Assembly: GCA_018267385.1 (NCBI GenBank)
Contig: JAFDYN010000010.1
Coordinates: 1 to 64,000 of the forward strand
Direction of reading: 5' to 3'
DNA: 64,000 nt
Origin: Bacteroidota bacterium
Lineage (GTDB): Bacteria; Bacteroidota; Bacteroidia; Chitinophagales; LD1
Position 1 is the stretch's first letter; each line of letters opens with the position of its first letter. The translations under genes were made by a program, and so were the position numbers. Below the pieces are notes generated by a model. It saw nothing but the letters and a program-made list of their open reading frames with translations, had not been told where the DNA came from and searched no databases. Shown one piece after another: positions 340-22,045 of the stretch.

Positions 340-1035
340 ATGACAGACCTCTCTCATAGTACGCAGCAGATCCAATACGTAGCGAGCTTTGATGCGCTTG
401 TTTCTACGCCCTTTGATGAGGCGATGAATGCTGTCTGCTGGCGGCGGGAGCTGGTAGGGGATTTTGCGGAGATAGTGGGGAAGGTGCCGATGGAGAGCAA
501 TATCACGGTGGTGGGAGAGGAGACGCTGATGGCACTGGAACTGAGTGAGCAGGGGCAGCTGGCACGGGAGGTGCTGCTCGGTGATATGCAGCTACTCACA
601 GATCATGGCGCGGCACCGGTGCTCAATCTGATAAGGTGTTATGACAGGGACGATGCGGTGCCGTTCTTCCCGACGGATGTATACTCATGGCATGTAGACC
701 GCGCGCCTGTGCCTACGGCTACCTTTCTCTGTACCTACTATGGTGCGGCGAGTGAGATCCTGCCCAACGCACAGGCTGAGCAAAAAATACTGATGCCGGA
801 GATACGCGCGGAGCTGTGGCAGCTCTATGGCGGCGAAGAGGAGGGCTTTGAAGACTGGCTCAGTGAGAACTTCTATGACCTGCACTACCAGGCCAGGCCA
901 GATGCGCAGCCTGTCAACCTCGGCACAGGCAACCTGTGGCGGCTGGCGGTGGACTGTGCGGATAGCGGGGTGCTGCCGTGTGTGCATCGGGCGCCGGTAG
1001 AGGGTGATGGAGTGCGGTTGCTGTTGATCTGCTAG
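340..1035 (+). CDS. Uncharacterised protein, DUF1826-like
   Basis: A 231-residue soluble protein with no signal peptide or membrane segment. I do not recognise it with certainty. The layout resembles DUF1826 proteins: an early N-terminal 'CWRREL' segment, a central 'SWHVDRAPVPTATFLCTYYG' segment with a conserved-looking His-Asp and Thr-Tyr, and a Cys/His-containing tail ('VLPCVHRAP'). DUF1826 proteins are of unknown function and are often found near zinc-uptake genes in other bacteria, but no such neighbours are present here. The gene reads in the same direction as the P450 that starts 92 bp downstream. Codon use is GC-rich like the P450 and unlike the AT-rich gene at 3.1-4.9 kb. The family call is tentative; the coding call is firmer. 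Confidence 0.6.
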   Translation: MTDLSHSTQQIQYVASFDALVSTPFDEAMNAVCWRRELVGDFAEIVGKVPMESNITVVGEETLMALELSEQGQLAREVLLGDMQLLTDHGAAPVLNLIRCYDRDDAVPFFPTDVYSWHVDRAPVPTATFLCTYYGAASEILPNAQAEQKILMPEIRAELWQLYGGEEEGFEDWLSENFYDLHYQARPDAQPVNLGTGNLWRLAVDCADSGVLPCVHRAPVEGDGVRLLLIC

Positions 1036-3058: not shown

Positions 3059-4897
3059 TTAATTTTTAGATTCTATTGAGCTTAAAGATTCCATGTTCAT
3101 TTTAATTTCAGTAATATCTGAATCTATAATTAATTGACAGTTAATATATTGTTGACTATAAAAGGCGTATTCTCTTCCTTTAGCCACATTCCTTTCCTCA
3201 CGCGATCTCAATTCAATAATTTTAGATATTGCTCTTTTTCTAAGTGCTAATAAAGCTCTTGCCATACTTTCGTTTGTTACTCGCGGCGTGTTTGATTTTA
3301 AAATTAGCGTTCCTTGAATACGATTGCTATAACCTTCTTGCTGAGACCTTATAGATGTTGCACTATTGACTTGTTGATTAAAAATAATTTCTAACTCTGA
3401 CGAATTGAAAACGAAATATCCATGTTCATTGGGTAACTCACCGTGGGGAAACAATAAATCTTCAATTATCAATAATCCACCATTATCTTTTAATGATTCA
3501 ATAGCCTTATTTAGTGACTTAACTAGGTTACCAATATTTATTTCGTGTACAACCCCAATAAAAGTCACTATCGAAAAGGTATTAATTGGCAAGTCTTCTA
3601 GCTCTTTTATTAGGTCACAGTTTATAGAAGTTTGACCAAAAGCCTTCGTAATTGACATTTCGAATGGTTCAAAGGCGGTATAAGAAAGTATTTTTGATTT
3701 GAAACTTGACGAACATTCATTTAAGGCATGTAATAACCTTCCTTGACCAGCTCCAAAGTCTAAAATGCTTATTTTGTTTCCTCGTCCGATTGCTTGCAAA
3801 AAAATAGTGATTTCAGGATCTCCAGCTTTTGCTTCGCTAAATATAGCTGGACGACTTAGGCATTCAATAGCAAAATTAGTTTCAGCCCATTTTGTTGTAT
3901 CCTTAATAAATTCATTTATTTTATCCGAGTTCGATCTTATTCCCATCAATTCGTCTAAGGCCTCGCCTGGGATTTTTCTCTTAGGAGCGAACAATTCCCC
4001 TTTTTTCATCAAATAAATTTCATTGTAGCTTAATTCAGAGAGAATATGGATAGAATGCGTAGCAAGCCACAATTGTCCCTTCTCACCTAGAATTGATTTT
4101 AACGCACGAATCAACGTGACCTGAGCTTCAGGATGAAGGTGAGTTTCCGGTTCGTCAATAATAAATATACATTCTTGAGCATTGACATTTTCTTTGACTT
4201 CAAACAGAGTCAGATAAAATGCAAAGACAACAAGAATTTTTTGGCCTGGAGACAGAAGATTAAATTCATAAGGGAAATTGCTAAATTCCATTAATCCAGT
4301 AAATCGAACGCTCAGATCATCAGTATCAGCGTCCACAAAATTTAGCTTCGTCCCTAGTAGCTTATCTATCCAATGTTGGAACTTGTTGAAATAAGGAGAG
4401 TATGTGATACCGTTTTTCTGGTTCTTGTTTCTGTATAAAAGATAATCTTCTTTAAGTAGTGGAGATGCTATTGTTTGCAACCCATTTATGATGAATTCTG
4501 CGGAAATATTTAAATCGAAATTAGACATGTCCAATTTCCTTACAACTTCAGAGAATTCTTCTGGCGAAATATCAGAATGCAAGGTGTGATTATGTGTCTC
4601 AATAACTCGAATTTTGGAATTTATTTTTTCCTTGTAAGCAGGTACATTTAGGCTGTCAGGATTTTTGGGGTCTTTCGGTAAATCACTTGTAAACGTCTCG
4701 TAGTCCGTATCTACACTGATCGTTGCAACTAAAGCTATGGGGTCTGCAAGTGCTGGATAGTTTTTTACAAGATTCAATAATCTTGTTTTACCTGATCCAT
4801 TTTTACCTATTAACGCTACTACTCTGCCAAATTCAGTAAAAGGAATAGGAGCCAATCCATTTTCCAGATTGGGTATTACAAGATTCTTTATATACAT
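3059..4897 (-). CDS. ABC/OLD-like ATPase fused to SAM methyltransferase
   Basis: A 612-residue two-domain protein. The N-terminal half is an SMC/RecF/OLD-like ABC ATPase: Walker A GKNGSGKT (31-38), signature LSPGQK (215-220), Walker B IFIIDEPETHLH (244-255) and the switch histidine ATHS (279-282). It lacks transporter features and no TOPRIM nuclease is visible. The C-terminal half carries a Rossmann methyltransferase: motif I ILDFGAGQG (378-386), an acidic mid-motif segment near VVHEI (449-453), and LLIIEDLLFP (475-484). An approximately 110-residue helical, charged tail follows. The gene is strikingly AT-rich beside its neighbours, which indicates horizontal acquisition. Stand-alone ATPases of this group often serve in anti-phage defence, but the fusion partner and the substrate (nucleic acid, protein or small molecule) are unknown. 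All ATPase motifs look intact. Confidence 0.9.
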   Translation of the reverse strand: MYIKNLVIPNLENGLAPIPFTEFGRVVALIGKNGSGKTRLLNLVKNYPALADPIALVATISVDTDYETFTSDLPKDPKNPDSLNVPAYKEKINSKIRVIETHNHTLHSDISPEEFSEVVRKLDMSNFDLNISAEFIINGLQTIASPLLKEDYLLYRNKNQKNGITYSPYFNKFQHWIDKLLGTKLNFVDADTDDLSVRFTGLMEFSNFPYEFNLLSPGQKILVVFAFYLTLFEVKENVNAQECIFIIDEPETHLHPEAQVTLIRALKSILGEKGQLWLATHSIHILSELSYNEIYLMKKGELFAPKRKIPGEALDELMGIRSNSDKINEFIKDTTKWAETNFAIECLSRPAIFSEAKAGDPEITIFLQAIGRGNKISILDFGAGQGRLLHALNECSSSFKSKILSYTAFEPFEMSITKAFGQTSINCDLIKELEDLPINTFSIVTFIGVVHEINIGNLVKSLNKAIESLKDNGGLLIIEDLLFPHGELPNEHGYFVFNSSELEIIFNQQVNSATSIRSQQEGYSNRIQGTLILKSNTPRVTNESMARALLALRKRAISKIIELRSREERNVAKGREYAFYSQQYINCQLIIDSDITEIKMNMESLSSIESKN

Positions 4898-4922: not shown

Positions 4923-5009
4923 TATAGGATTTCTCTTTTATTTCTTCGAAAGCTTTGTTGTCTCGTGAATCTCATTCAATACATACCTTCGTTTTTCTTC
5001 CCTTTCCTT

Positions 5010-5053
5010 CATGAGCTTTTTCAGAGATAGGTATGGCGGCCTGCGGGGTATTT
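5010..5053 (+). pseudogene. Remnant copy of the PBP gene 5' end
   Basis: This 44-bp stretch matches the start of the class A PBP gene (7619-7663) at about 38 of 44 aligned positions, including ATGAGCTTT and TGGCGGCCTGCGGG. One base is missing, so the frame shifts and closes within about 30 codons. It is in the same orientation as the intact gene, 2.6 kb upstream. It is best read as a decayed duplicate produced by a rearrangement, not a functional gene. Confidence 0.65.
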
Positions 5054-5132: not shown

Positions 5133-7358
5133 CTACCTGATCAGCGTGACCGATCCTGTATGCGCGTGCTCCTGTGGCAGGCCCGTGCTACGGTAGCGGA
5201 TCATGTAGACATACACACCTGCGGGTTGTGCTACACCCTTGTAGGTGCCATCCCAGCCGCTGGCCTCGGCAGATGACTCATAGACCAGCTCGCCCCAGCG
5301 GTTGTAGATCGTGATGTGGTAGCTGTCATACGTGCAGGCTGAGTAGGTGCGGAAGGTTTCGTTTTTGCCATCGCCATTAGGTGTGAAGGCGGAAGGGATA
5401 GCCACCGGACAGGAGTCGCAGCGGTGGAAGTCGACACGCACTGTATCTGTGACGGGGCATAGCCCAGCCGTATCACTGATCACTACCGTATAAAGGCCGG
5501 AGTCAGTCACCGTGATGACCTGTGTGGTCTGCCCATCAGACCAGAGGAAATTGCGACCTGCGTTCTGCGCATCGAGGGTCACGCTGGCACGGGAGCAGCT
5601 ATCTACTACAGCACCATTGTATACGCGCGAAGGAGAACGTGGCAATGATATGCTGACAGATGCGTCTGCACTGGCGCAGGTATTGCTCACGGTCACAGTA
5701 TACGTGCCAGCGGTATGGGCATAGATAGATGGCTGTGTGGCGCCCGTACTCCAGCTATAGCTGGTGGCATCTGTAGCTACGGGGGCCAGCAGTATGCTGT
5801 CTGCATCGCACTGCACGGGTATAGGGTCCAGGCTCACGGTAGGGGCGGGCAGTGCGGTGATGGTGACAGAGGCCGTAGTAGCCGCACAGCGATTGGTCTC
5901 GGTGAGGGTATAGGTACCTGCCGCAGTGACGAGGAAGGTATCCGTCTGCGTGACACCATCCTGCCAGAGCAGGGAGAGGCCGGCAGCCGGCACGGGCGCT
6001 GCGCGCAGGGTCAGCTCGGCACCGCTGCACAGCCCCTGGTCTGCACCGATGGAAAAGGCCGCGGGAGCAGAGACTGTATCTATCCTGACCGAATCGGTAT
6101 AGGCGCCACAGGCATTGGCTACGCGCAGCCAGTAGATGCCGGGCGCAGAGGCGGTATAGGTCGAGTCTGTAGTGGCATCCTGCCAGAGGTATGACACAGG
6201 GGAGGTGCCGGTCACTGCGGGCACTATGACCATAGAGGCGCCGCCGCAGATGAGTGAGTCCGGACCGAGGTCAGCCGTAGGTGTCTGACCGAGTGAGATG
6301 CGCATGCTATCGCGCGCTGCAGACGAGGCGCATTGATTGCTCACCTGCAGCCAGTAGGTGCCGGCCAGGCGCGCAGTGTCACGCTGCTGGGTGGTGCCAT
6401 CAGACCAGAGGTAGCTCAGTGTACCCGTGCCTGTCACTACAGGGCTGATACTGGTGTACACGCTATCGCAAAAGGAGGTATCTGCCGGGAGCGCCACGGT
6501 AGGCTTGACAAAGGTGGTGATGTGCACGGTGTCAGTGAGGATGCAGATAGGGATGAAGGCAATATCATCGAGAGCAAAGTCATTGCCACCGCCGGCTGTG
6601 CTGGAGTCGGTCAGGCAGATATTGACGCTGGTATTGGCGCCGGAGTTCCACACGGTGTAAAACTGCGACCATACGCCTGCAGAGATCACCGGGCTGAAGG
6701 GTGGACCTGCGGGAGCGTTGTTGATATTAAAGCGGAGATTGGGCAGCGGCTGTGGATTGAGGTCCACATTAGACACCCAGGCGGAGAACTGATAATCTGT
6801 ATACGGCTGCACGGTGATGGTCTGGCACCATACGCTGATGTTGGGGCTGGTAGCGCCATTGACGATCATCATCTGCCCCGTGCCGGAGGTGTGGTCGCCA
6901 AAGTTTGCAAACTGTGTGTGCGTGTTGCGCGGATTGGTATTGACGGTATAGTCTGCCTCGCAGCCCAGTATGCCATAGGTGCCACAGGGCTGTGCAGGCG
7001 GGGCATTGAGATAGGTATAGCCGCTGCTGAAGCCTGTATTGCCGGCAGAGAAATCACCATTGGAGATGAGATTGGTAGTAGAGCTGACAGTGACCGTACA
7101 GGTGTAGGATGTATCGTGTGTGACCGTGGCAGTGGGATTGGCCACGGTGCTATCGCTCAGCCCGTATTTGGGCTTCCACGCGCGGGATATGATGGTGCCG
7201 GATGAAATAGCCGAGTGCAACACAAAACTACCTGGACAGATGCTGGTATCTGGTGTGATGGTCAGGGTAGGGCAGGCCTGGCTGTAGACCGTACCTATAC
7301 TGAGAAAACAGAGGCAGGATAGCAGCAGGAGGAAGCGAAAGGGATAAAACTGTGACAT
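5133..7358 (-). CDS. T9SS type B secreted adhesin-like protein
   Basis: A 741-residue secreted protein. Residues 1-26 are a signal peptide ending at VYSQ/A. A module at about 105-275 opens with 'NLISNGDFSAGNTGF' and ends with 'FALDDIAFIPIC'; this is the pattern of carbohydrate-binding/galactose-binding-like jelly rolls in this phylum. Four to five Ig/PKD-like repeats of about 75 residues follow, each with a Cys pair and a 'YLWSDG' or 'YLWQDA' strand. The C-terminus (about 650-741) is the gliding-motility-associated CHU_C type B sorting domain (IPSAFTPNGDGKNETF, YNRWGELVYES, WDGTYKG, PAGVYVYMIRY). It is exported by Sec, then T9SS, and held at the cell surface. A single-gene unit lying between two copies of the PBP 5' end. 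Confidence 0.9.
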   Translation of the reverse strand: MSQFYPFRFLLLLSCLCFLSIGTVYSQACPTLTITPDTSICPGSFVLHSAISSGTIISRAWKPKYGLSDSTVANPTATVTHDTSYTCTVTVSSTTNLISNGDFSAGNTGFSSGYTYLNAPPAQPCGTYGILGCEADYTVNTNPRNTHTQFANFGDHTSGTGQMMIVNGATSPNISVWCQTITVQPYTDYQFSAWVSNVDLNPQPLPNLRFNINNAPAGPPFSPVISAGVWSQFYTVWNSGANTSVNICLTDSSTAGGGNDFALDDIAFIPICILTDTVHITTFVKPTVALPADTSFCDSVYTSISPVVTGTGTLSYLWSDGTTQQRDTARLAGTYWLQVSNQCASSAARDSMRISLGQTPTADLGPDSLICGGASMVIVPAVTGTSPVSYLWQDATTDSTYTASAPGIYWLRVANACGAYTDSVRIDTVSAPAAFSIGADQGLCSGAELTLRAAPVPAAGLSLLWQDGVTQTDTFLVTAAGTYTLTETNRCAATTASVTITALPAPTVSLDPIPVQCDADSILLAPVATDATSYSWSTGATQPSIYAHTAGTYTVTVSNTCASADASVSISLPRSPSRVYNGAVVDSCSRASVTLDAQNAGRNFLWSDGQTTQVITVTDSGLYTVVISDTAGLCPVTDTVRVDFHRCDSCPVAIPSAFTPNGDGKNETFRTYSACTYDSYHITIYNRWGELVYESSAEASGWDGTYKGVAQPAGVYVYMIRYRSTGLPQEHAHTGSVTLIR

Positions 7359-7607
7359 CTATCGTAGTGACTTTTATGTGAAAAAGCGTTGGGACGCGCT
7401 ACATAAGTGGCTTAAAACCTAAGCGTTCATTTGCATTATGTATACAAAGAGAAGCAATCGAGGCGTCAAAAGTTGCATCGTGAAATGCCGTTTTGCCAAT
7501 GAATTGATTGTAAGTAAAATGTATCCTTTTTGACCGAAATTTTTACAACTGATCAATTGCTGCATCCCGCTATAGACCCGGTGTGTCTCTGCTGACAGTG
7601 TTTTTAC

Positions 7608-7615
7608 TACCTTAG
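7608..7615 (+). promoter_or_regulatory. Possible -7 element TACCTTAG for the PBP gene
   Basis: A 7 of 8 match to TAnnTTTG ending 4 bp before the ATG at 7620. If used, transcription would begin at or very near the start codon. No clear -33 TTG is visible. Confidence 0.3.
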
Positions 7616-7619
7616 CCCC

Positions 7620-9848
7620 ATGAGCTTTCTTAGAGATAAGGTGTGGCGGCCTGCGGGATATTTTTGGGTCCTGTGGGCCATCAGTATTGTAAGTGTAGTG
7701 CTGTTCTTTTTTGCTATCGCTACAGGTATGTGGGGACGCCTCCCATCGGTGCATGAGCTGGAGGACCCGAAGTCTAACACTGCTACGGAGGTGATCAGCG
7801 CAGACGGCGTGGTACTGGGAAAATACTTTCGCGAGAACCGCACCAATGTGACCTACGACCACCTGCCTAAGTGCCTGGTAGATGCACTGCTGGCTACTGA
7901 GGATGTGCGATTTTATGACCATACAGGTATAGACCTGAAGGCCATAGGCCGCGCTGTGATCGGCGTGGTGATCCGAGACTCCAAGGGTGGCGGTAGCACC
8001 ATCACGCAGCAGCTGGCCAAGAATCTTTTCCCGCGCAAAAGGCACATAGGCAAAGTACAACTGGCGCTGCAGAAGTTTAAAGAATGGGTGATAGCGGCGC
8101 GGCTGGAGCATACTTTTACCAAGGAAGAAATACTGGCGTTGTACTTTAATACCGTACCATTCAGTGATAATGCCTTTGGTATCAGTACCGCTGCGGAGAC
8201 CTACTTCAGCAAGCCTGTAGACTCCCTGAATGTGCAGGAGGCCGCCGTGCTGGTGGGTATGCTCAAGGCATCTACAGCGTACAATCCGCATCAAAACCCG
8301 GAGGCATCGCGCAAGCGCCGCGATGTAGTATTGTCTCAGATGGCCAACTATGGCTTTCTGACAGACCACCAATATGACTCCCTGACCAAGCTGCCTATTG
8401 TGCTGCGCTTTGATGCGGGTACACACGAGGATGGACTGGCACCGTACTTTCGTGAGTACCTGCGCCTCTACATCGCCGACTACCTGGACAATCATCCTAA
8501 GCCGGACGGCAGCAAGTACGACCTCTACAAGGACGGGCTGAAGATCTATACCACTATCGACTCGCGTATGCAGCGCTATGCAGAGGAGGCACAGCGGGAG
8601 CACCTGGAGGAGTGGCAGAAGCTATTCTTTAAAATGAGTGCGAAGGACCCGTGGAAGGAGTTCCCGGAGGAGTGGGAGCGCACCTATACGCAAAGCTCAC
8701 GCTACAAGCAATATCAGGCTGAGGGCAAGACGCGCGAGGAGATAGATACGCTGATGCGTACGAAGATAGAGATGCGCATCTTCAGCTGGCAGGGAGAGAA
8801 GGATACGCTGATGAGTCCGTGGGACTCGATACGCTATCACAGGATGATCCTGCAGAATGGCCTCATAGCACTGGATCCGGGCTCCGGTAATGTGCGGGCC
8901 TGGGTGGGAGGGGTAAACTACAAGTACTTCCAATATGACCACGTGAATGTGAATACAAAACGCCAGATCGGGTCTACATTCAAACCATTTGTCTACCTGG
9001 CGGCGATCCGTGAGAAAGGATACTCTCCCTGCTATGAAGTGCCCAATGAGCCGGTGACATTTGAGGCGGGTGACCCACGCTTCCACTTGCAGGAAGACTG
9101 GACACCGCACAACTCTGACGGCAAGTATGGTGGTACGCTAAACTTGAAGCAAGGCCTGGCTAACTCGGTGAATACGATCACTGCCTACCTGATGCATGAG
9201 ATGAGTCCTGCCACGGTAGTAAAACTGGTACACGATATGGGCGTGACCAGCGAGATACCGGACCAGCCCTCTATCTGTCTCGGCACTGCAGATATATCGC
9301 TGATAGAAATGGCCGGAGCCTACACGACCTTTGCCAATAAGGGGGTGCATGTGGACCCCATCTTTGTGACGCGGATAGAGGATAGGACGGGTACGGTCAT
9401 AGCCAATTTTGTAGCGGAGCAGCGAGAGGTGCTGGACGAACCAACAGCCTATGTGATGGTAGACCTGCTGCGCGGTGTGGTGAGCTATGGTACGGGCGTG
9501 CGCCTGCGCTACCGCTATCACCTGCCGGGAGATATCATAGGCAAAACCGGAACCACGCAAAACAACTCTGATGGCTGGTTTATGGGCTGCACGCCAGACC
9601 TGGTCACGGCCACATGGGTAGGGTGCGAGGATAGGTTCATCCGGTTTCGCAGTATGGAGTATGGCCAGGGTGCCAGCACTGCGCTGCCTATCTGTGCCAA
9701 ATTTCTGCAAAAGGTTTTTACCGATTCTACTGCTCTGGGTATCTCGCCTTCCCGCCAGTTTGAGCGGCCTGAAAGACTCTCTATAGACCTGAATTGCAAG
9801 ACCTACGCCGGGCAAAAGAAGGACCGGTCTGAAGAGTTTGGTGACTAA
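7620..9848 (+). CDS. Class A penicillin-binding protein (PBP1A-like)
   Basis: A 742-residue bifunctional peptidoglycan glycosyltransferase/D,D-transpeptidase that polymerises and cross-links lipid II at the outer face of the inner membrane. A short cytoplasmic stretch and one membrane anchor (about residues 13-40) lead into the GT51 domain, with the catalytic TEDxxFYxH segment near 94 and GGSTITQQLAKN near 123. The transpeptidase domain has SxxK in GSTFKPF (Ser452), SxN as SVN near 515 and KTGTT near 642. All catalytic motifs are present. It stands alone between an oppositely oriented adhesin gene and a T9SS gene in the same direction. The ATG at 7620 is the only start that keeps the anchor intact. 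Confidence 0.96.
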   Translation: MSFLRDKVWRPAGYFWVLWAISIVSVVLFFFAIATGMWGRLPSVHELEDPKSNTATEVISADGVVLGKYFRENRTNVTYDHLPKCLVDALLATEDVRFYDHTGIDLKAIGRAVIGVVIRDSKGGGSTITQQLAKNLFPRKRHIGKVQLALQKFKEWVIAARLEHTFTKEEILALYFNTVPFSDNAFGISTAAETYFSKPVDSLNVQEAAVLVGMLKASTAYNPHQNPEASRKRRDVVLSQMANYGFLTDHQYDSLTKLPIVLRFDAGTHEDGLAPYFREYLRLYIADYLDNHPKPDGSKYDLYKDGLKIYTTIDSRMQRYAEEAQREHLEEWQKLFFKMSAKDPWKEFPEEWERTYTQSSRYKQYQAEGKTREEIDTLMRTKIEMRIFSWQGEKDTLMSPWDSIRYHRMILQNGLIALDPGSGNVRAWVGGVNYKYFQYDHVNVNTKRQIGSTFKPFVYLAAIREKGYSPCYEVPNEPVTFEAGDPRFHLQEDWTPHNSDGKYGGTLNLKQGLANSVNTITAYLMHEMSPATVVKLVHDMGVTSEIPDQPSICLGTADISLIEMAGAYTTFANKGVHVDPIFVTRIEDRTGTVIANFVAEQREVLDEPTAYVMVDLLRGVVSYGTGVRLRYRYHLPGDIIGKTGTTQNNSDGWFMGCTPDLVTATWVGCEDRFIRFRSMEYGQGASTALPICAKFLQKVFTDSTALGISPSRQFERPERLSIDLNCKTYAGQKKDRSEEFGD

Positions 9849-13924: not shown

Positions 13925-16900
13925 TTATTTAGCTATGGTCAGCACTTTGGTAAAGAAGCTATTGCCGGTCTTTACCGTGACGTGATAAACACCATCTGCC
14001 AGCGCAGCTATATCAAATCTACGGTCATTATAACCTGCACGGAGCTGCCACTGCGTGCTGAGTACCTCGCGGCCCAGTACATCAGTGAAGCTGATAGCTA
14101 CAGGTGTTTCTGTTGCCGCTACTATATCTACCGTGACCTGTGCAGCGGCAGGATTAGGATAGATATTGTGTATGGTGATACCATTGTTGCTACCGGTGAG
14201 GCTGGCGGAGACTATGTTGCTGTATTCATACTTACCGTCATAGTCCACCTGCTTCAGTCGATAATAGTAGATGGTACCTGTAGCCACCTGGCGGTCGTCC
14301 GTAGCATACTTGATCATACTGTTGCTATTGCCGCTGCCGTCTACCCATGCTATCGGCTCAAAGGCGATACCATCTGTGCTGCGCTCTACCTGGAAGCCAC
14401 TGTTATTGATCTCTGAGGCGGTAGCCCACTCCAGTATGATGTATCTGTCATCCTGCACGGTGGCGGTCAGGTACATGAGCGTGACGGGGAGGGGAGTATT
14501 GGTCTGATGGAGGCCGATAGCAAAATCAGAGAAGCCGGTCACACCGGTGCGCACCGCTGTGGCTACACCGCCGGAGATGGACTGTGTAGCATTACTATGG
14601 CTACCATAGGCGCTGGACTGTGCTGAGCCATTCAGCAGGCCGCAGCCCAGCCATGGAAAGCTGGCATTGGAGCGCTTGATCACACCCATCTGGTTGGCAG
14701 CCGTAGGTGCATTGCTGTAGCCCATGGCATTCAGTGTCACGTCATATGTGCCGCCGGCCATAGTGCTATTTGGCGTGAATGTCCAGAATCCGTTATTGAG
14801 GTAATCATTGATCTTGGAGCCATTGATCTGGCAGGTAGATATGGATGGTGCAGTGCCGGACTGACCGGTAGTGAAGTAACCCAACAGGCTGGTAATACCG
14901 GACTGGCCATTAAAGCTGATGTTGCCCAGATCATAGTAGGATGTATTGCCCACAGGGAAATCATAAGCACCGCTCGCACCTACATAGCGGCGCAGGTTTC
15001 CGATCACATATTTATTGAGGCCGTGACCTGTGATGGCAGAGGTCGATGTGCTGGATGCTACCAGTTCATTGCTGCCTGTAGAGATGCGGCCTTTTGTGAA
15101 TGCTATCACGCCACTGGCATTAGCAGTATTGGTCAGCGTCACAATATCGGAGGTACCGGACTTCTGCACATATATATTTACCATGCTGGACGGGAGGCCG
15201 TTGCCTGATACCATATCGCCATTGCCTACAAAACCATAGCTGGCAGAAGAAGAGAATGTGCGCGTGCCGCTGATGCGGATATTGCCATCACTCGTAGTAG
15301 TACCTGAGGTCTTTATGCCGTTTGGTGAGCCATATTTGAAGGTGGCTCCGGCGTTGATCGCAAAATTGCCTGTGCCGGTGACATTTTCTGTCTCATCCAG
15401 CTGGAAGACAGCCGGTGAGTAAACGTTAAAGTTGCCCTTGACCGCAAAGCTGGCTGCAGGGCCGACATTGTAGTCTGTGGTATTGGCAGCATCTGCATTG
15501 ATGTCTACATTGTAGTAGCTGATGGTATTGCTATTGCCATCTGTGCCACGCAGCACCTGATGGGCAGTACCATTAGATCCGTAAAACTCTACTGTACCGC
15601 CGGTGAGGGAGTATGGTATGGTGGTGCCTGTCAGGACCGGCTGAGTGGTACTGAGATTGCGGATCATGATGCGGCCGCCATCCATGATGAGGCCGCCATT
15701 GCCTAAGAAGGAAACCGCTCCTCCGGAGCCATCCACACAGTTTACTACGGTGTTAGCGCTGCTCACGATCAGGGAGTCATTGATGGTGGCATCGGTAGAC
15801 AGGTTCTTGTAGTCAGTGCCATAGATATTAGACCCTGAAAATTTAACGTTGTAATAGGTCCTGTTGCCACGCAGGGTTTGCGCACCTGCGCCGGCCAGCT
15901 CTATCGTACCGCCATTCAGTGTGTAGGCATTGCTCACTCCGTCCATACGTGGTATCAGGTCTGAGCTGCTGGTGCTGAGTGCCGGGATCTGATAGAGTGT
16001 ACCCGCGGCCATGGTCAGCGTGCCGGTAGATCCGGTGATATAGGCCGTAGCAGTCTCCAGAAACTGTCCCTTGCGGATATCCAGCTTGCCACCTGTAGCG
16101 CTGATAGTAGTAGCATTGGTCAGGCCTGTAGACTGTGTGAGCGTGACAGACAGACTCTTATTAAGGAGATCTATAATAATTTGCTTACCGTTTGAGCTGG
16201 TAGTGATGGCATCACCTGTCACCTGATTGGCGTGACCGGTGTACCAGAATGTAGCAAGCTGATTGAAAGTCTTATTGCTGTTTGTAAACTGGACATTGCC
16301 CAATGTACCGGATAATTGTTGTATGCCGTCAGGTGAGGTGATCTTCAATGTGCTGCCTTGCTCTGTGACAAATGTATTAGTACCTCCGGAGATGCTTTTT
16401 TTGATTACAAGCGCTGTCGTATTATTGGCTGCGAAACCAAAATCCAATGTACCCCCGGTTTTGACGGTGATGGCAGCTGAAGTACCGCTGTAGCAGGTGA
16501 CGTCCAGATTATTATTGCGCAGCGCAACGTTGGCACCGGAGAGGATATTCATAGGGATGGTGACGGGCTGAGTAGCTACATCCAAATACTGAGTAGTACT
16601 TGTATTGTTATAATTGAAAGATGATGTGCCGGTAGCAGCTTCGTTATCAAAAAGGACGGTACTAGCCACGGTCAGGTCACCTGTGAGGTTTACTGTAGCA
16701 TTGGTAGCAGAGCCGCCCCCATTATGGAAAAGCGTCAGTGCCCCGTTACCTTTCGATGAGAGGTTTTCCGTGATATTGAGTGTCTGGGTAGCGCTGCCGC
16801 TAAAGCATGCAGCCAGTGCTAGGTAGCCGCTGTTATGATTTAGCCTGCCTACAGTGACAGTAGGGCTGCTGGTATGAGACATCATGCTGACCGCATAGGT

Positions 16901-19900
16901 GAGGTTGCTCGTGTTATCTACATTCAGCGTATCACATAGCTTTACAGTAGAGCTACCTCCTACGAGTGTCCAGTCAGTACCATAATACGCAAGATCGACA
17001 TCGATAGATAGGATACCAAACTTATAGCCGTTGGCATTATTCGAAATGTTTCCGCTCGGGTAGGTACCTGTATTGTAAAGGCTACCGGATCCGGATCCGG
17101 ATATAGCCCAGTCTCCAACGTAAAATTCAGAGCCCGGTTCAAAGTTTTCAATGCCGCCCCAAATCACGTGGCGATTATCAATGTATGGACTTTCTATATC
17201 AAATATGGAGCCCTTGCGTAGAATGAATTTAGCGCCGCTATTGATAGAGATCTGACCCCATAGAGACAGGTAGCCACCATTCAGCACCTCAAGGCTATCG
17301 CCAGAGGGGATGAAGTCTACAGATGGGGTGCCCGTAGCGCGGAGATCGAGCCAACCATTACTTTGCACTACAATGGTGTGATAAGCCTTACTGTCATTGC
17401 CTGCACCGTTCACATAGGTGCCTGGTGCTATGATGACCCGTGTGGGCGTAGTAGTAGCATTGGCCGGAGCCTTATCTCCCGGTGTGGTGCCCCAGGTGGT
17501 CCCATTGTAGTATTCCCAGTTATTGGTAGTACCGGCTGTATTATTAGCGGCCAGGGTAGTAGATGAGGATACTGACCGGTAGTCACCTGCACGGTACACG
17601 AAATTGAGCACAGTGAGTGTGGCATTAGAAGAGGTCACGGTGCCGCAGGTGCCAGTCACTACTACAGAGTAGATGCTGCCATCGTCTGTGAGTGCTGCTG
17701 ATGACAATGTGTAACTGGATGAGGTAGCACCGGAGATATTGACGCCACCCTTGCGCCACTGATAGGTGAGGCCGACGCCCGCTGCTGTGACGCTAAATGT
17801 AGCCGGGCTACCCACGCTCACCGTGGTATTAGCAGGCTGGGTGGTGATAGAGGTATTGGTATTGACAGTGACAGATGCAGAGCTCACAGCTCCTGCTGAT
17901 GGGCATCCGCTATTGATAGCACGCACATACATGGTACCCGAGCTGCTCAGTGTATAGGCTGTAGTGGTAGGGGAGGCGGTGCTGGTGCCCGAAGCCGCAG
18001 TCTCCCAGTAGAGTGAGGCAGACGGTGCGCTATAAGTCAGGGTAGTAGAGCCGCAGGCGGGATTGGATGCTACGGAGATGGTACCTGTAGGTGTAGATGG
18101 TACGCTATTGACTGTGACCGTCACAGATTGACGCGTTGCGCTCAGACAGGAGCCATTCTCACCCTGTACAAAGTAGGTATAGCTACCTGCTGCGAGAGAT
18201 GATGGCGTAGTGAGGTTATTGCCGGACACTGTGCCTGCAGGGGTGGTACCGGTAGTCACAGCACTGCCCCCGGTAGATGCGGTCCAGTAGGTGTAGGCGG
18301 TGGCCCCTGTGCTGCCCGCGCCTGTGATCGTAGCGGTAGACCCTGCGCATATGGCCGCAGGAGTGGCGCACGCAGGAGTGGTAGGCTGTGTAGTCAGTGT
18401 AGCTACTACAGCAGTCCTGCCCGATGTAGTACATCCTGCATTTGTCGCGTCTACATAGTAGGTAGTGGTAGAGGATATGGTCGGAGAGTAGCTATTGCCG
18501 GTAGCGATAGCAGTACCACCGCTGGATGCAGTATACCAATTGACCGTGCCGGCAGATGCCGTAGCGCCCAGTGTCACCGTACCACTACCGCAGGTAGTAC
18601 TGGCCGGCGTAGTGCCGGTGATGGTAGGCTGTGTACAGGTATTGGGTGTGACATAGATATCATCAAAGTTGATACGGTTATTACCGGATGCAGCCAGGTT
18701 CACAATCCGGAAGCGGACATTGCCGGTCAGGTTTACAGTGATGACCTGCGTAGAGAATGAGCCTGCCGGTGCAGTATATGTACTGCTCACAAAAGCTGTA
18801 AATGTGGAGCCGCCATCTGTAGAAGCCTCCAGCCTCCAGGTCGCGCTCGCATCTGAGCCGTACATACCGTGAGAGACCGTCACCGTACCGAGCCCGGTGG
18901 TCAGGTCAAAGTTCATTTTGATAAGGCCTGCCGAATTTACGCGTGCAGACTGGCTACCGTTCATAAGGTCGCTGGCACTGGTGCCGAGGAGCGCATTGCT
19001 GAAGTTCCAGCTACCGGCTGTGCATGTCACATTGGCTGCAGAATAAGCTGTCTTGGAGCCAGCTTCAAAATCTTCCCATACGGCAGGATTGACAGTCAGT
19101 GTAGCCGAGCCTGAGGTGGCAGCCGTACATGGCGTGGTGCCACTCACCACACAGCGGTACTGGTAGCCCGACATGGTAGTAGCAGTAGGATTGATGACCA
19201 GTGATGCGGTGGTCACGCCGCTATATGGAGAGCCATTGCTCAGGCTGGCCCAACCTGTGCCATCATTGTACTGCCACTGATAGCCGCCTATAGTGCCGGA
19301 GGCAGCTACAGTGAATGTCTTAGATCCACCTGCTGTCACCGTAGCAGATGTCGGTGCGGCGGTGATGTTGATAGCAGTATTGATAGTGATACTACCCGAG
19401 TTCACAGTATTGGCAGACCAGCAGGTACCATTGTAGGCGCGCGCATAGATGGTACCGGTAGCAGCCAGGGAGTAGCCAGTACTGGTAGCATAGGTAGTAC
19501 TTGTGCCACCTGCGGCAGTCTCCCAATAGATGCCCGATGATGGCGCACTGTAGCTCAGTGTAGCCGCTCCGCAGCTTGGATTAGCCGAGGCACTGATCGT
19601 GCCTGTAGGGTCAGCCGGCAGGGCATTGACAGTGATAGCACCGGATGGATTGCTCGTCACCGTGGTACATGGGCTATTGCCTGTCACTATACAGTAGTAG
19701 TAGTACGTACCTACCGTAGCCGGCAGGGTATAAGATGAGCCGGTAGCTCCTGTGATCAGTGTACCGGTCGTATTGTTATTGGCTGTATTGACATACCACT
19801 GATAGCCGACAGCATTGGATGCCGTGACTGATACAGAGGCAGGCGAGAAAGCCGTGCCTGCGCAAACAGTCTGTGCGGAGGTAGAGGGCTGAGCGGATAT

Positions 19901-22045
19901 CGATGGAGCAGCCACGATGGTGATGGCCTGCGAGGCAGTAGCTGTACAGCTGCCTAGTGTGGATGTCACAGTGTAGGTGCCGCTGCTGGAGTAGTTAGCG
20001 CTGGCGCTGCTGCCGCCACCACCTGACCACGCGTATGAAGTACCTGTGCCGGAGGCTGTCAGTGTCACACTGCTACAGCCCGGGGTAGTACCTGATATGG
20101 ATACCGTTGGATTAGTATTGACTGTCACGGCAGATGATGCTGTAGCAGTACAGCCACTCAGTGTAGAGGTGACCGTGTAGGTACCGCTGGAGGTGAATGT
20201 ATTAGCCGCAGTAGTGGTAGAGGTGCCGCCGGACCATACATACGAGCTACCCGTGCCGGAAGCCGTCAGTGATACCGACGCGCAAGCGGTGGTAGTGCCG
20301 GAGATAGACAGGGTCGGGTTGACCCTGATGGTCAGGTCTGTACCATTGTCACTGCCGGAGACTGCAGGTGTATTGCTCACCACGCGAATGCGGTAGGCGG
20401 TACCCGCAGAGGCGCCGGATGGTATGGTGACGGATATGGACTGGCTGCCTGAGCCATCAGATACGATGCTCTGCAGTGCTGTAGGACTGGCGAAGCTACC
20501 TGCAGCATCAGAAAGCTGTGCGGTGAAAGTGGCAGTAGGAAACGCAGATGAAGCACTGTAGGTGAAAGGTACTGATATGCCAGATACTCCCTGGCAGAAA
20601 GGTGAACCTGGTACCGTGCCTGTAGTGATCGAATTATTGGTCACGTTGATCTGGACCTCATTGCTGGTCACGGTATTGCTGCAAGGTGCGCCGTAGGTAG
20701 TCTGGCAGACTACATAGTAGGTACCAGCAGAACCAAAGTTTGGTGTATAGGTAGTAGAGGTAGCACCACTTATCGTATTGCCATACGGACCTCCCGATGC
20801 CGTACTATAGTACCACTGGCGGCTGGTGGGTGCGCTGGTACCTTCTGTCACTGTGAGCGTGTTGCCATTCACTCCAGCAGTGATGTTTTGGGTAGGTGTA
20901 GGGGCTATGGTAGTAGTAGAGGTATTCACATTGATGGCCTGAGATGCCGTAGCCGTGCAGGTGCCTAAAGTGGATGTGACTGTGTATGTGCCACTGCCGG
21001 AGTAGGTAGCGCTCGCGCTGCTACCACCACCTGCTGACCACGCATATCCGGTGCCAGTACCACTGGCCGTGAGTGTCACACTGGTACAACCCGGCGTAGT
21101 ACCGGATATGGACAGGGTAGGGTTGGGATTGACAGTGATGGACTGTGATGCTGTGGCCGTACATGAGCCCAGCGTAGAAGTGACGGTGTAAGTGCCGGTG
21201 GAGGAGAATGTATTGGCCGCCGTGTTTGTAGAACTGCCTCCTGACCACACGTAAGATGTACCTGTGCCGCTGGCTGTCAGTGATACTATACCACAGGCCG
21301 TAGTTGTACCTGATATGCTGAGGGTCGGGTTGCTATTCACCACAATGGCTTTCGAGGCTGAGGCAGTACAACCACTATTGGTGGCAGTCACTGAGTAGGT
21401 ACCTGAAGAAGAGTAGGTAGCCGTAGAGGTGCTGCCTCCACTGTTTGACCATACATAAGTATTACCACTGGTGCCAGATGCTGTGAGCGTGATAGATCCG
21501 CAGCCAGGAGTAGTGCCTGAAATTGATACGGTAGGTGTGGTACATCCCGAAGTTATACTTACATCGTCAATGGTAAGATTAACTGATCCCGACTTGGTAT
21601 ATGTCCATTTGACATAGCGACTCGTACTTAGAAGTGTAAACGGTCCATAGCTTGTACACGAGGTAGATAGAGTAATGGTGCCGCTCACAGTAGTCCACGT
21701 ACTGCCGTTAGATGACTCTTGTAACAGCAGGCTACAACCTGTAGGCGTTGCTGTAGCTTTTGTTGTAAATGAAACTGTACCTGCCTGGCTGCTAAAATTG
21801 ACAATATAATTATCTGCTGTCGTAGCGAATTTGCCGCCATCATTTGTCGAACAGGCAAAGGTCGTTGCATAATTACCTCCAGCGTTGTCTGTCCATCCTG
21901 TAGGTGTTGTTCCCCAAGCTGTCCTGGATAAAGGAAGTGTAGCTTGCGACCATCCGGTCAGACTCATAGCTACTAGAAAAAGGGTCATCAGAGATTTGCT
22001 AATAGATAAACCACAAGACTGTTGGAAGTCGATCTTCTTCTTCAT
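13925..22045 (-). CDS. Giant T9SS type A adhesin with Ig-like repeats
   Basis: A 2706-residue secreted surface protein. Residues 1-34 are a signal peptide (ends GWSQ/A). A jelly-roll-like module (about 40-165) precedes five closely related Ig-like repeats of about 68 residues (SISGTTPGC...TASGTG...YVWSGG...TYTVTSTLG.CTATASQ), three in tandem at 174-376 and two more near 575-715. More diverged Ig/PKD-like domains, a second jelly-roll (about 985-1130) and a long beta-helix-like stretch (about 1500-2450) follow. The C-terminal 80 residues are a type A sorting domain (IYPNPAAAQVTV, FTDVLGREVL, GVYHVTVKTGNSFFTKVL). The composition is rich in Ser, Thr and Gly. Export is by Sec then T9SS; adhesion is the likely role but no ligand can be named. 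The frame is intact throughout its 8.1 kb. Confidence 0.92.
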   Translation of the reverse strand: MKKKIDFQQSCGLSISKSLMTLFLVAMSLTGWSQATLPLSRTAWGTTPTGWTDNAGGNYATTFACSTNDGGKFATTADNYIVNFSSQAGTVSFTTKATATPTGCSLLLQESSNGSTWTTVSGTITLSTSCTSYGPFTLLSTSRYVKWTYTKSGSVNLTIDDVSITSGCTTPTVSISGTTPGCGSITLTASGTSGNTYVWSNSGGSTSTATYSSSGTYSVTATNSGCTASASKAIVVNSNPTLSISGTTTACGIVSLTASGTGTSYVWSGGSSTNTAANTFSSTGTYTVTSTLGSCTATASQSITVNPNPTLSISGTTPGCTSVTLTASGTGTGYAWSAGGGSSASATYSGSGTYTVTSTLGTCTATASQAINVNTSTTTIAPTPTQNITAGVNGNTLTVTEGTSAPTSRQWYYSTASGGPYGNTISGATSTTYTPNFGSAGTYYVVCQTTYGAPCSNTVTSNEVQINVTNNSITTGTVPGSPFCQGVSGISVPFTYSASSAFPTATFTAQLSDAAGSFASPTALQSIVSDGSGSQSISVTIPSGASAGTAYRIRVVSNTPAVSGSDNGTDLTIRVNPTLSISGTTTACASVSLTASGTGSSYVWSGGTSTTTAANTFTSSGTYTVTSTLSGCTATASSAVTVNTNPTVSISGTTPGCSSVTLTASGTGTSYAWSGGGGSSASANYSSSGTYTVTSTLGSCTATASQAITIVAAPSISAQPSTSAQTVCAGTAFSPASVSVTASNAVGYQWYVNTANNNTTGTLITGATGSSYTLPATVGTYYYYCIVTGNSPCTTVTSNPSGAITVNALPADPTGTISASANPSCGAATLSYSAPSSGIYWETAAGGTSTTYATSTGYSLAATGTIYARAYNGTCWSANTVNSGSITINTAINITAAPTSATVTAGGSKTFTVAASGTIGGYQWQYNDGTGWASLSNGSPYSGVTTASLVINPTATTMSGYQYRCVVSGTTPCTAATSGSATLTVNPAVWEDFEAGSKTAYSAANVTCTAGSWNFSNALLGTSASDLMNGSQSARVNSAGLIKMNFDLTTGLGTVTVSHGMYGSDASATWRLEASTDGGSTFTAFVSSTYTAPAGSFSTQVITVNLTGNVRFRIVNLAASGNNRINFDDIYVTPNTCTQPTITGTTPASTTCGSGTVTLGATASAGTVNWYTASSGGTAIATGNSYSPTISSTTTYYVDATNAGCTTSGRTAVVATLTTQPTTPACATPAAICAGSTATITGAGSTGATAYTYWTASTGGSAVTTGTTPAGTVSGNNLTTPSSLAAGSYTYFVQGENGSCLSATRQSVTVTVNSVPSTPTGTISVASNPACGSTTLTYSAPSASLYWETAASGTSTASPTTTAYTLSSSGTMYVRAINSGCPSAGAVSSASVTVNTNTSITTQPANTTVSVGSPATFSVTAAGVGLTYQWRKGGVNISGATSSSYTLSSAALTDDGSIYSVVVTGTCGTVTSSNATLTVLNFVYRAGDYRSVSSSTTLAANNTAGTTNNWEYYNGTTWGTTPGDKAPANATTTPTRVIIAPGTYVNGAGNDSKAYHTIVVQSNGWLDLRATGTPSVDFIPSGDSLEVLNGGYLSLWGQISINSGAKFILRKGSIFDIESPYIDNRHVIWGGIENFEPGSEFYVGDWAISGSGSGSLYNTGTYPSGNISNNANGYKFGILSIDVDLAYYGTDWTLVGGSSTVKLCDTLNVDNTSNLTYAVSMMSHTSSPTVTVGRLNHNSGYLALAACFSGSATQTLNITENLSSKGNGALTLFHNGGGSATNATVNLTGDLTVASTVLFDNEAATGTSSFNYNNTSTTQYLDVATQPVTIPMNILSGANVALRNNNLDVTCYSGTSAAITVKTGGTLDFGFAANNTTALVIKKSISGGTNTFVTEQGSTLKITSPDGIQQLSGTLGNVQFTNSNKTFNQLATFWYTGHANQVTGDAITTSSNGKQIIIDLLNKSLSVTLTQSTGLTNATTISATGGKLDIRKGQFLETATAYITGSTGTLTMAAGTLYQIPALSTSSSDLIPRMDGVSNAYTLNGGTIELAGAGAQTLRGNRTYYNVKFSGSNIYGTDYKNLSTDATINDSLIVSSANTVVNCVDGSGGAVSFLGNGGLIMDGGRIMIRNLSTTQPVLTGTTIPYSLTGGTVEFYGSNGTAHQVLRGTDGNSNTISYYNVDINADAANTTDYNVGPAASFAVKGNFNVYSPAVFQLDETENVTGTGNFAINAGATFKYGSPNGIKTSGTTTSDGNIRISGTRTFSSSASYGFVGNGDMVSGNGLPSSMVNIYVQKSGTSDIVTLTNTANASGVIAFTKGRISTGSNELVASSTSTSAITGHGLNKYVIGNLRRYVGASGAYDFPVGNTSYYDLGNISFNGQSGITSLLGYFTTGQSGTAPSISTCQINGSKINDYLNNGFWTFTPNSTMAGGTYDVTLNAMGYSNAPTAANQMGVIKRSNASFPWLGCGLLNGSAQSSAYGSHSNATQSISGGVATAVRTGVTGFSDFAIGLHQTNTPLPVTLMYLTATVQDDRYIILEWATASEINNSGFQVERSTDGIAFEPIAWVDGSGNSNSMIKYATDDRQVATGTIYYYRLKQVDYDGKYEYSNIVSASLTGSNNGITIHNIYPNPAAAQVTVDIVAATETPVAISFTDVLGREVLSTQWQLRAGYNDRRFDIAALADGVYHVTVKTGNSFFTKVLTIAK
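19905..20325 (-). repeat. Two Ig-like repeat units, second block
   Basis: Two consecutive coding repeats of about 205 bp inside the giant adhesin. They begin SISGTTTACASVSL and SISGTTPGCSSVTL and closely match the three units of the first block. The separation of the blocks by a different domain suggests an ancient block duplication. Boundaries are approximate. Confidence 0.7.
20918..21526 (-). repeat. Three tandem Ig-like repeat units, first block
   Basis: Residues 174-376 of the adhesin are three head-to-tail copies of an approximately 68-residue unit (SISGTTPGCGSITL, SISGTTTACGIVSL, SISGTTPGCTSVTL). At DNA level the copies share long stretches, making this a likely site of unequal recombination and length variation. 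Confidence 0.8.

Follow-up and report, generated by a model that had tools for sequence, protein, structure and literature searches.

A gene joining a PtuA-like ABC ATPase to a class I methyltransferase: a candidate one-gene defence system in Bacteroidota

Relation to described ABC-ATPase systems

In the published defence systems considered here, ATPases of the PtuA, OLD, AriA and WonA types are paired with nucleases (PMC12137116, PMC12839542, PMC10568477, PMC13261556). The gene described here, found in a 64-kb stretch of DNA (the window), resembles several of these systems and differs from each. Septu, or the type I-A retron effector (PtuA-PtuB), is similar in that PtuA gives both the nearest solved fold to the ATPase part (E. 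coli Septu PtuA, 8ee4; Z 15.9, rmsd 4.0, 274 residues aligned) and the best PADLOC match of that half (4.8e-19). However, the gene of the window is not accompanied by the HNH partner PtuB, as its neighbours encode a P450 and an adhesin, and a methyltransferase is fused to the ATPase instead. Members of the OLD family (class 1 single-gene OLD, Gabija GajA, PARIS AriA/AriB and WonAB) likewise place an effector domain behind an ABC ATPase that contains a long insert, are mobile and often consist of a single gene, but where they carry Toprim or another nuclease the fusion has a class I SAM methyltransferase. CxC/DndD systems, which also belong to a conflict setting, combine an ABC ATPase with a methylase too, although their methylases are separate DNA cytosine enzymes and a DndE partner is present; in the fusion the enzyme is part of the same chain and is of a non-DNA type. 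MADS is similar in its MAD3 component, the profile of which matches the ATPase half (1.9e-16), but the score of the window protein is far under the curated cutoff (37.5 bits vs 420) and no other MADS component was recognised beside the gene.

The fusion family has no name in PADLOC 2.0.0 or NCBIfam and we found no description of it in the open-access literature; the main survey of ABC ATPases (Krishnan 2020, doi 10.1093/nar/gkaa726) lies outside that coverage and an earlier mention is possible. Our best reading is that the fusion is probably a new form of ABC-ATPase defence in which a methyltransferase takes the place of the effector. If this is true, methylation joins the immune effectors by way of a non-DNA methyltransferase that is permanently fused to a sensor of the PtuA/OLD/AriA type, and as a single protein of about 600 residues the system is easy to clone and test.

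The two halves of the fusion protein

The original prediction that one gene joins an ABC ATPase to a methyltransferase is borne out by the open reading frame, by Pfam, by the motifs (Table 1) and by about 20 independent loci with the same full-length architecture. Pfam assigns the N-terminal half to AAA_15 (5e-17) and AAA_21 (5e-13) and the C-terminal half to Methyltransf_23 (9e-7, which exceeds its curated cutoff). The N-terminal half is a complete ABC ATPase of the OLD/PtuA type, in which Walker A, signature, Walker B and switch His are all present. Walker A, the signature and motif I (ILDFGAGQG at residues 378-386 when the preceding residue is included) stand in the translation exactly where they had been predicted. 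Walker B, IFIIDEPETHLHP, extends over residues 244-256, and the switch His, though present, had been numbered one short, at 280.

Table 1. Features of the fusion gene and its surroundings, in window coordinates; invariance refers to an alignment of 20 homologues
Feature	Position	Strand	Residues	Remarks
ATPase-methyltransferase fusion gene	3059..4897	-	612 aa	ATG start, intact ORF, lone gene
Walker A GKNGSGKT	4784..4807	-	31-38	G31, N33, G36, K37 invariant
Variable ATPase insert	4283..4747	-	51-205	low model confidence
ABC signature LSPGQK	4238..4255	-	215-220	S216, G218 invariant
Walker B and D-loop CIFIIDEPETHLHP	4130..4171	-	243-256	D248, E249, H255 invariant
Switch His	4055..4057	-	281	invariant
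Class I SAM methyltransferase domain	3293..3850	-	about 350-535	predicted from Pfam, model and fold comparison
SAM-binding motif I LDFGAGQGR	3737..3763	-	379-387	D380, G382, G384, R387 invariant
NVLHE-type motif at the place of motif IV	3542..3547	-	H451-E452	invariant
C-terminal helical pair	3062..3274	-	542-612	N586 invariant
DUF1826 gene	340..1035	+		left border of variable spot
Cytochrome P450 gene	1092..2468	+		left neighbour of fusion gene
Secreted adhesin-like gene	5133..7358	-		right neighbour of fusion gene
Penicillin-binding protein 1A-type gene (pbp1A)	7620..9848	+		right border of variable spot; named from sequence
Decayed copy of pbp1A 5' end	4991..5053	+		real copy 7600-7663; adjoins fusion gene

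The invariant residues of the ATPase include those marked in Table 1, and those of the C-terminal half include the ones marked there together with G473, E479, G486, E487 and G493. By sequence the ATPase is closest to the PADLOC models for PtuA, AriA, MAD3 and AbiLi, all of which are defence ATPases. The AriA models match 20/20 family members scanned, and the PADLOC matches cover the ATPase halves only; against the NCBIfam PtuA model (NF041760) the window protein scores 40.6 bits, below the curated cutoff of 500. The predicted model of the full-length protein (mean pLDDT 72.6) is good at both ends and poor in the ATPase insert, which is the most variable part of the protein, with a length of 117-250 residues in homologues and a mean pairwise identity of 0.17. 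Mean identity is 0.43 around the signature and Walker B, 0.39-0.43 at the ATPase ends and 0.36 in the methyltransferase core. Judged from its sequence, the insert is a candidate region for trigger recognition or dimerisation.

Modelled on its own, the C-terminal half adopts a class I SAM methyltransferase fold with high confidence (pLDDT 89.4, pTM 0.88), in keeping with the Rossmann methyltransferase that had been proposed, and from this fold and motif I it is predicted to bind SAM and to transfer methyl groups. Fold comparison places the small-molecule O/N/S-methyltransferases TmtA and GtmA at the top (Z 16), with METTL6, Hen1 and others also matched (Z about 14), and with matches to enzymes as different as these the fold does not reveal the substrate. 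A profile search of the PDB again returned small-molecule methyltransferases. The invariant H451 aligns with the His of NVLHNW in the O-methyltransferase Plu4895 (chain position 230 of 8big), and an H229N mutant structure of Plu4895 is among the matches. Motif I and the H-E pair are kept in 22/22 members, while the (D/N/S)PP(Y/F/W) motif IV of DNA/RNA amino-methyltransferases occurs in none of the 22, and no DNA-methylase Pfam family matches this half, the families that do match being of the small-molecule type. A base-modifying restriction methylase is thus unlikely, which weakens the earlier suggestion of a nucleic-acid system. Motifs and fold point rather to an enzyme of the O-/N-small-molecule type that would act on a non-DNA target.

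Relatives, their neighbourhoods and a possible role

Three family members, used to seed a search of GTDB genomes, brought in 18 more full-length relatives as well as a broken copy split in two frames (L032), at 22-35% identity; one of the loci obtained, L015, is the same gene as the seed L002. Full-length relatives as a whole show 20-35% identity and the same fusion architecture. Three more members, all on prophage contigs (L119, L120 and L121), came from a methyltransferase-led scan of IMG/VR; in the same collection the window protein alone found no relatives and an ATPase-led alignment found ATPase relatives only. The hosts are mostly Bacteroidota, followed by Clostridia, Alphaproteobacteria and Stenotrophomonas, and the distribution is patchy. 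Five of 345 Bacteroidia genomes have the fusion, the genome of the window included, and the five strong methyltransferase matches in this sample all lie in open frames of 613-677 codons, the length of the fusion. Samples of 369 and 391 genomes from two other classes held no fusion besides that of the seed genome, and searches of plasmid collections (four queries) and phage collections (two queries) gave no full-length relative. A match on a Gloeobacter plasmid was rejected, as it has no methyltransferase motifs and by eye resembles an ATPase-Toprim protein, and three weak methyltransferase matches (L127-L129, E about 1e-11) were taken to be methyltransferases of other kinds and left out. The window protein forms a long, early branch of the Bacteroidota group in the tree, and the homologue of its congener G006 (L002/L015) falls in a different clade, so that one genus holds two deeply divergent members of the family. 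The 0.8-Mb genome that contains L024 (G744) has two members, one of them in a 927-codon frame with one in-frame TGA, possibly the sign of a different genetic code or of a broken copy.

Several relatives lie among restriction or other defence genes. L024 begins 53 bp after HsdS and ends 1 bp before GajA, with GajB next and all of them on one strand; after L020 come a PDC-S26 nuclease and a type II methyltransferase; and L023 is placed among HsdM and HsdS with AbiTii further out, and a type I restriction subunit recorded among more distant neighbours is most likely part of that island. L030 and L031 are transcribed divergently from genes for anti-phage dCTP deaminases, L025 has genes for a HEPN-nucleotidyltransferase and an HNH protein nearby, and a DUF4062 gene is four genes away from L019. 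The prophage members sit between phage baseplate, tail, repressor and RecE-like genes, and an endolysin gene is near L028. Roughly half of the homologues stand alone between housekeeping genes, for example DnaK-, ClpB- and AlaS-like ones (names read from sequence), and mostly have a higher AT content than the DNA around them. Among 84 neighbour proteins only dCTP deaminases and restriction methylases recur between loci. PADLOC matches are modestly commoner adjoining the fusion gene than further away, in per-family tallies without formal significance that include housekeeping matches (ClpB-like, ThiF-like and TatD-like) and in which several of the neighbours scanned had been picked by eye as defence-like. 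In G006 a gene for a 430-aa protein without a Pfam match (L015 11803-13095) is convergent to the homologue.

The suspicion of a defence function raised by the original prediction gains from the PtuA-like fold and from the homologues that lie near Gabija, restriction or dCTP deaminase genes or in prophages, but the copy in the window has no defence neighbours. This copy, and the half of the family that stands alone among housekeeping genes, count against a role in defence. On balance we favour, with a probability of roughly 60%, a system of one gene directed against phages or mobile elements, whose methyltransferase would be gated by the PtuA-like ATPase and would modify a target other than DNA. 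In such a system the PtuA/OLD-type ABC ATPase, with its fast-evolving insert, would sense infection, and the trigger could lead to ATP-dependent dimerisation of the ATPase heads or to oligomerisation. This would switch on the fused methyltransferase, which as the effector may methylate a tRNA, protein or metabolite at an O- or N-methyl acceptor and so stop phage production, probably through abortive infection. That we are dealing with a new class of effector, a methyltransferase switched on by an ABC-ATPase sensor to disable tRNA, protein or metabolite of host or phage, is put forward more tentatively, at somewhat under even odds, together with a sub-variant in which it would serve as a SAM gauge guarding restriction systems against SAM-destroying phages.

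Other explanations can be suggested for the same observations. The small-molecule Pfam families of the methyltransferase half and the many copies adjoining housekeeping genes would be expected if the protein were a metabolic methyltransferase, or a housekeeping one, regulated by its ATPase and with no part in defence. Confinement of homologues to metabolic operons had been named at the outset as evidence that would remove the defence reading, yet across the family loci surveyed we found neither a conserved metabolic operon nor a shared operon of any kind. The very patchy distribution, the carriage by prophages, the restriction of conserved neighbours to the dCTP deaminase pair and restriction methylases, the affinity of the ATPase with defence ATPases and the two deeply different members in one genus also make a metabolic role unlikely. 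We would give similarly little weight to the idea that the ATPase alone is antiviral or toxic, and the methyltransferase a regulator or dispensable. In the OLD protein YbjD the anti-phage phenotype needs the ATPase domain but not the C-terminal Toprim (PMC13261556), and by analogy the ATPase might act alone in the fusion protein too. However, the methyltransferase core is conserved about as well as the ATPase ends, and in the Bacteroidia sample the fusion is strictly kept.

Two further possibilities connect the protein to restriction, and both seem improbable. It could be a self-marking, restriction-like enzyme, in which the ATPase finds sites and the methyltransferase marks bases of host DNA or RNA, an arrangement that calls to mind the pairing of ABC ATPases with DNA methylases in CxC/Dnd-like systems (PMC10853773) and the co-location of L020, L023 and L024 with type I or II restriction genes. 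The lack of a DNA-type motif IV and of DNA-methylase families speaks against this, as does the fact that there is no target-recognition domain and that most loci are without a nuclease partner. Alternatively, the methyltransferase domain might be a SAM gauge that releases the ATPase to damage the cell once SAM has been depleted or restriction blocked by a phage, much as PARIS is reported to sense Ocr and cut tRNA (PMC12839542). Such a guard would fit the relatives in or beside restriction loci and the match of AriA models to every member scanned, but most copies do not adjoin restriction genes, and the invariant residues, the H-E pair among them, indicate that the domain catalyses and does not only bind SAM; we give this reading only a slender chance.

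The variable spot that holds the gene

Whichever of these functions it has, the gene differs sharply in composition from the DNA around it, as had been noted from its AT-richness relative to its neighbours. Its GC content is 34-35% against 45-59% across the rest of the window; the two 1-kb bins of the gene have values of 0.343 and 0.348, all other 1-kb bins are at or above 0.449, and the dip spans about 2.98 to 5.0 kb. The genome has one copy. In the window the P450, fusion and adhesin genes occupy the interval between the DUF1826 gene and pbp1A, with the fusion gene upstream of pbp1A. In G006 some 0.4 kb, free of long genes, separates these two border genes, and in the congeners G004 and G005 other genes are present. 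The decayed pbp1A 5' end next to the fusion gene points to insertion or duplication here, and a similar relic occurs in the same spot of G004. Such partial duplications border gene blocks in two congeners (window 4991-5053 and 7600-7663; L112 8704-8774 and 3593-3660) and suggest that the start of pbp1A has repeatedly served as an insertion site. Direct repeats were sought on both sides of the fusion gene, with short AT-rich matches as the only result. The variable spot and the pbp1A relics, taken together with the placement in the tree, fit repeated lateral gain, and on this sequence evidence the fusion gene would be a horizontally acquired, lone cargo.

Other features of the spot and its surroundings may be recorded here. 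In G004 it holds a five-gene block (L112 3686-8637), several genes of which have predicted membrane segments by eye, and in G005 an ORF of the Y1 (RAYT-like) transposase type (L113 3026-3694). The window contains at 2521-2610 an interspersed REP-like repeat, about 50-85 bp long, of which the genome has at least 11 other copies, and at 13925-22045 on the reverse strand a gene for a very large repetitive secreted protein of 2706 aa.
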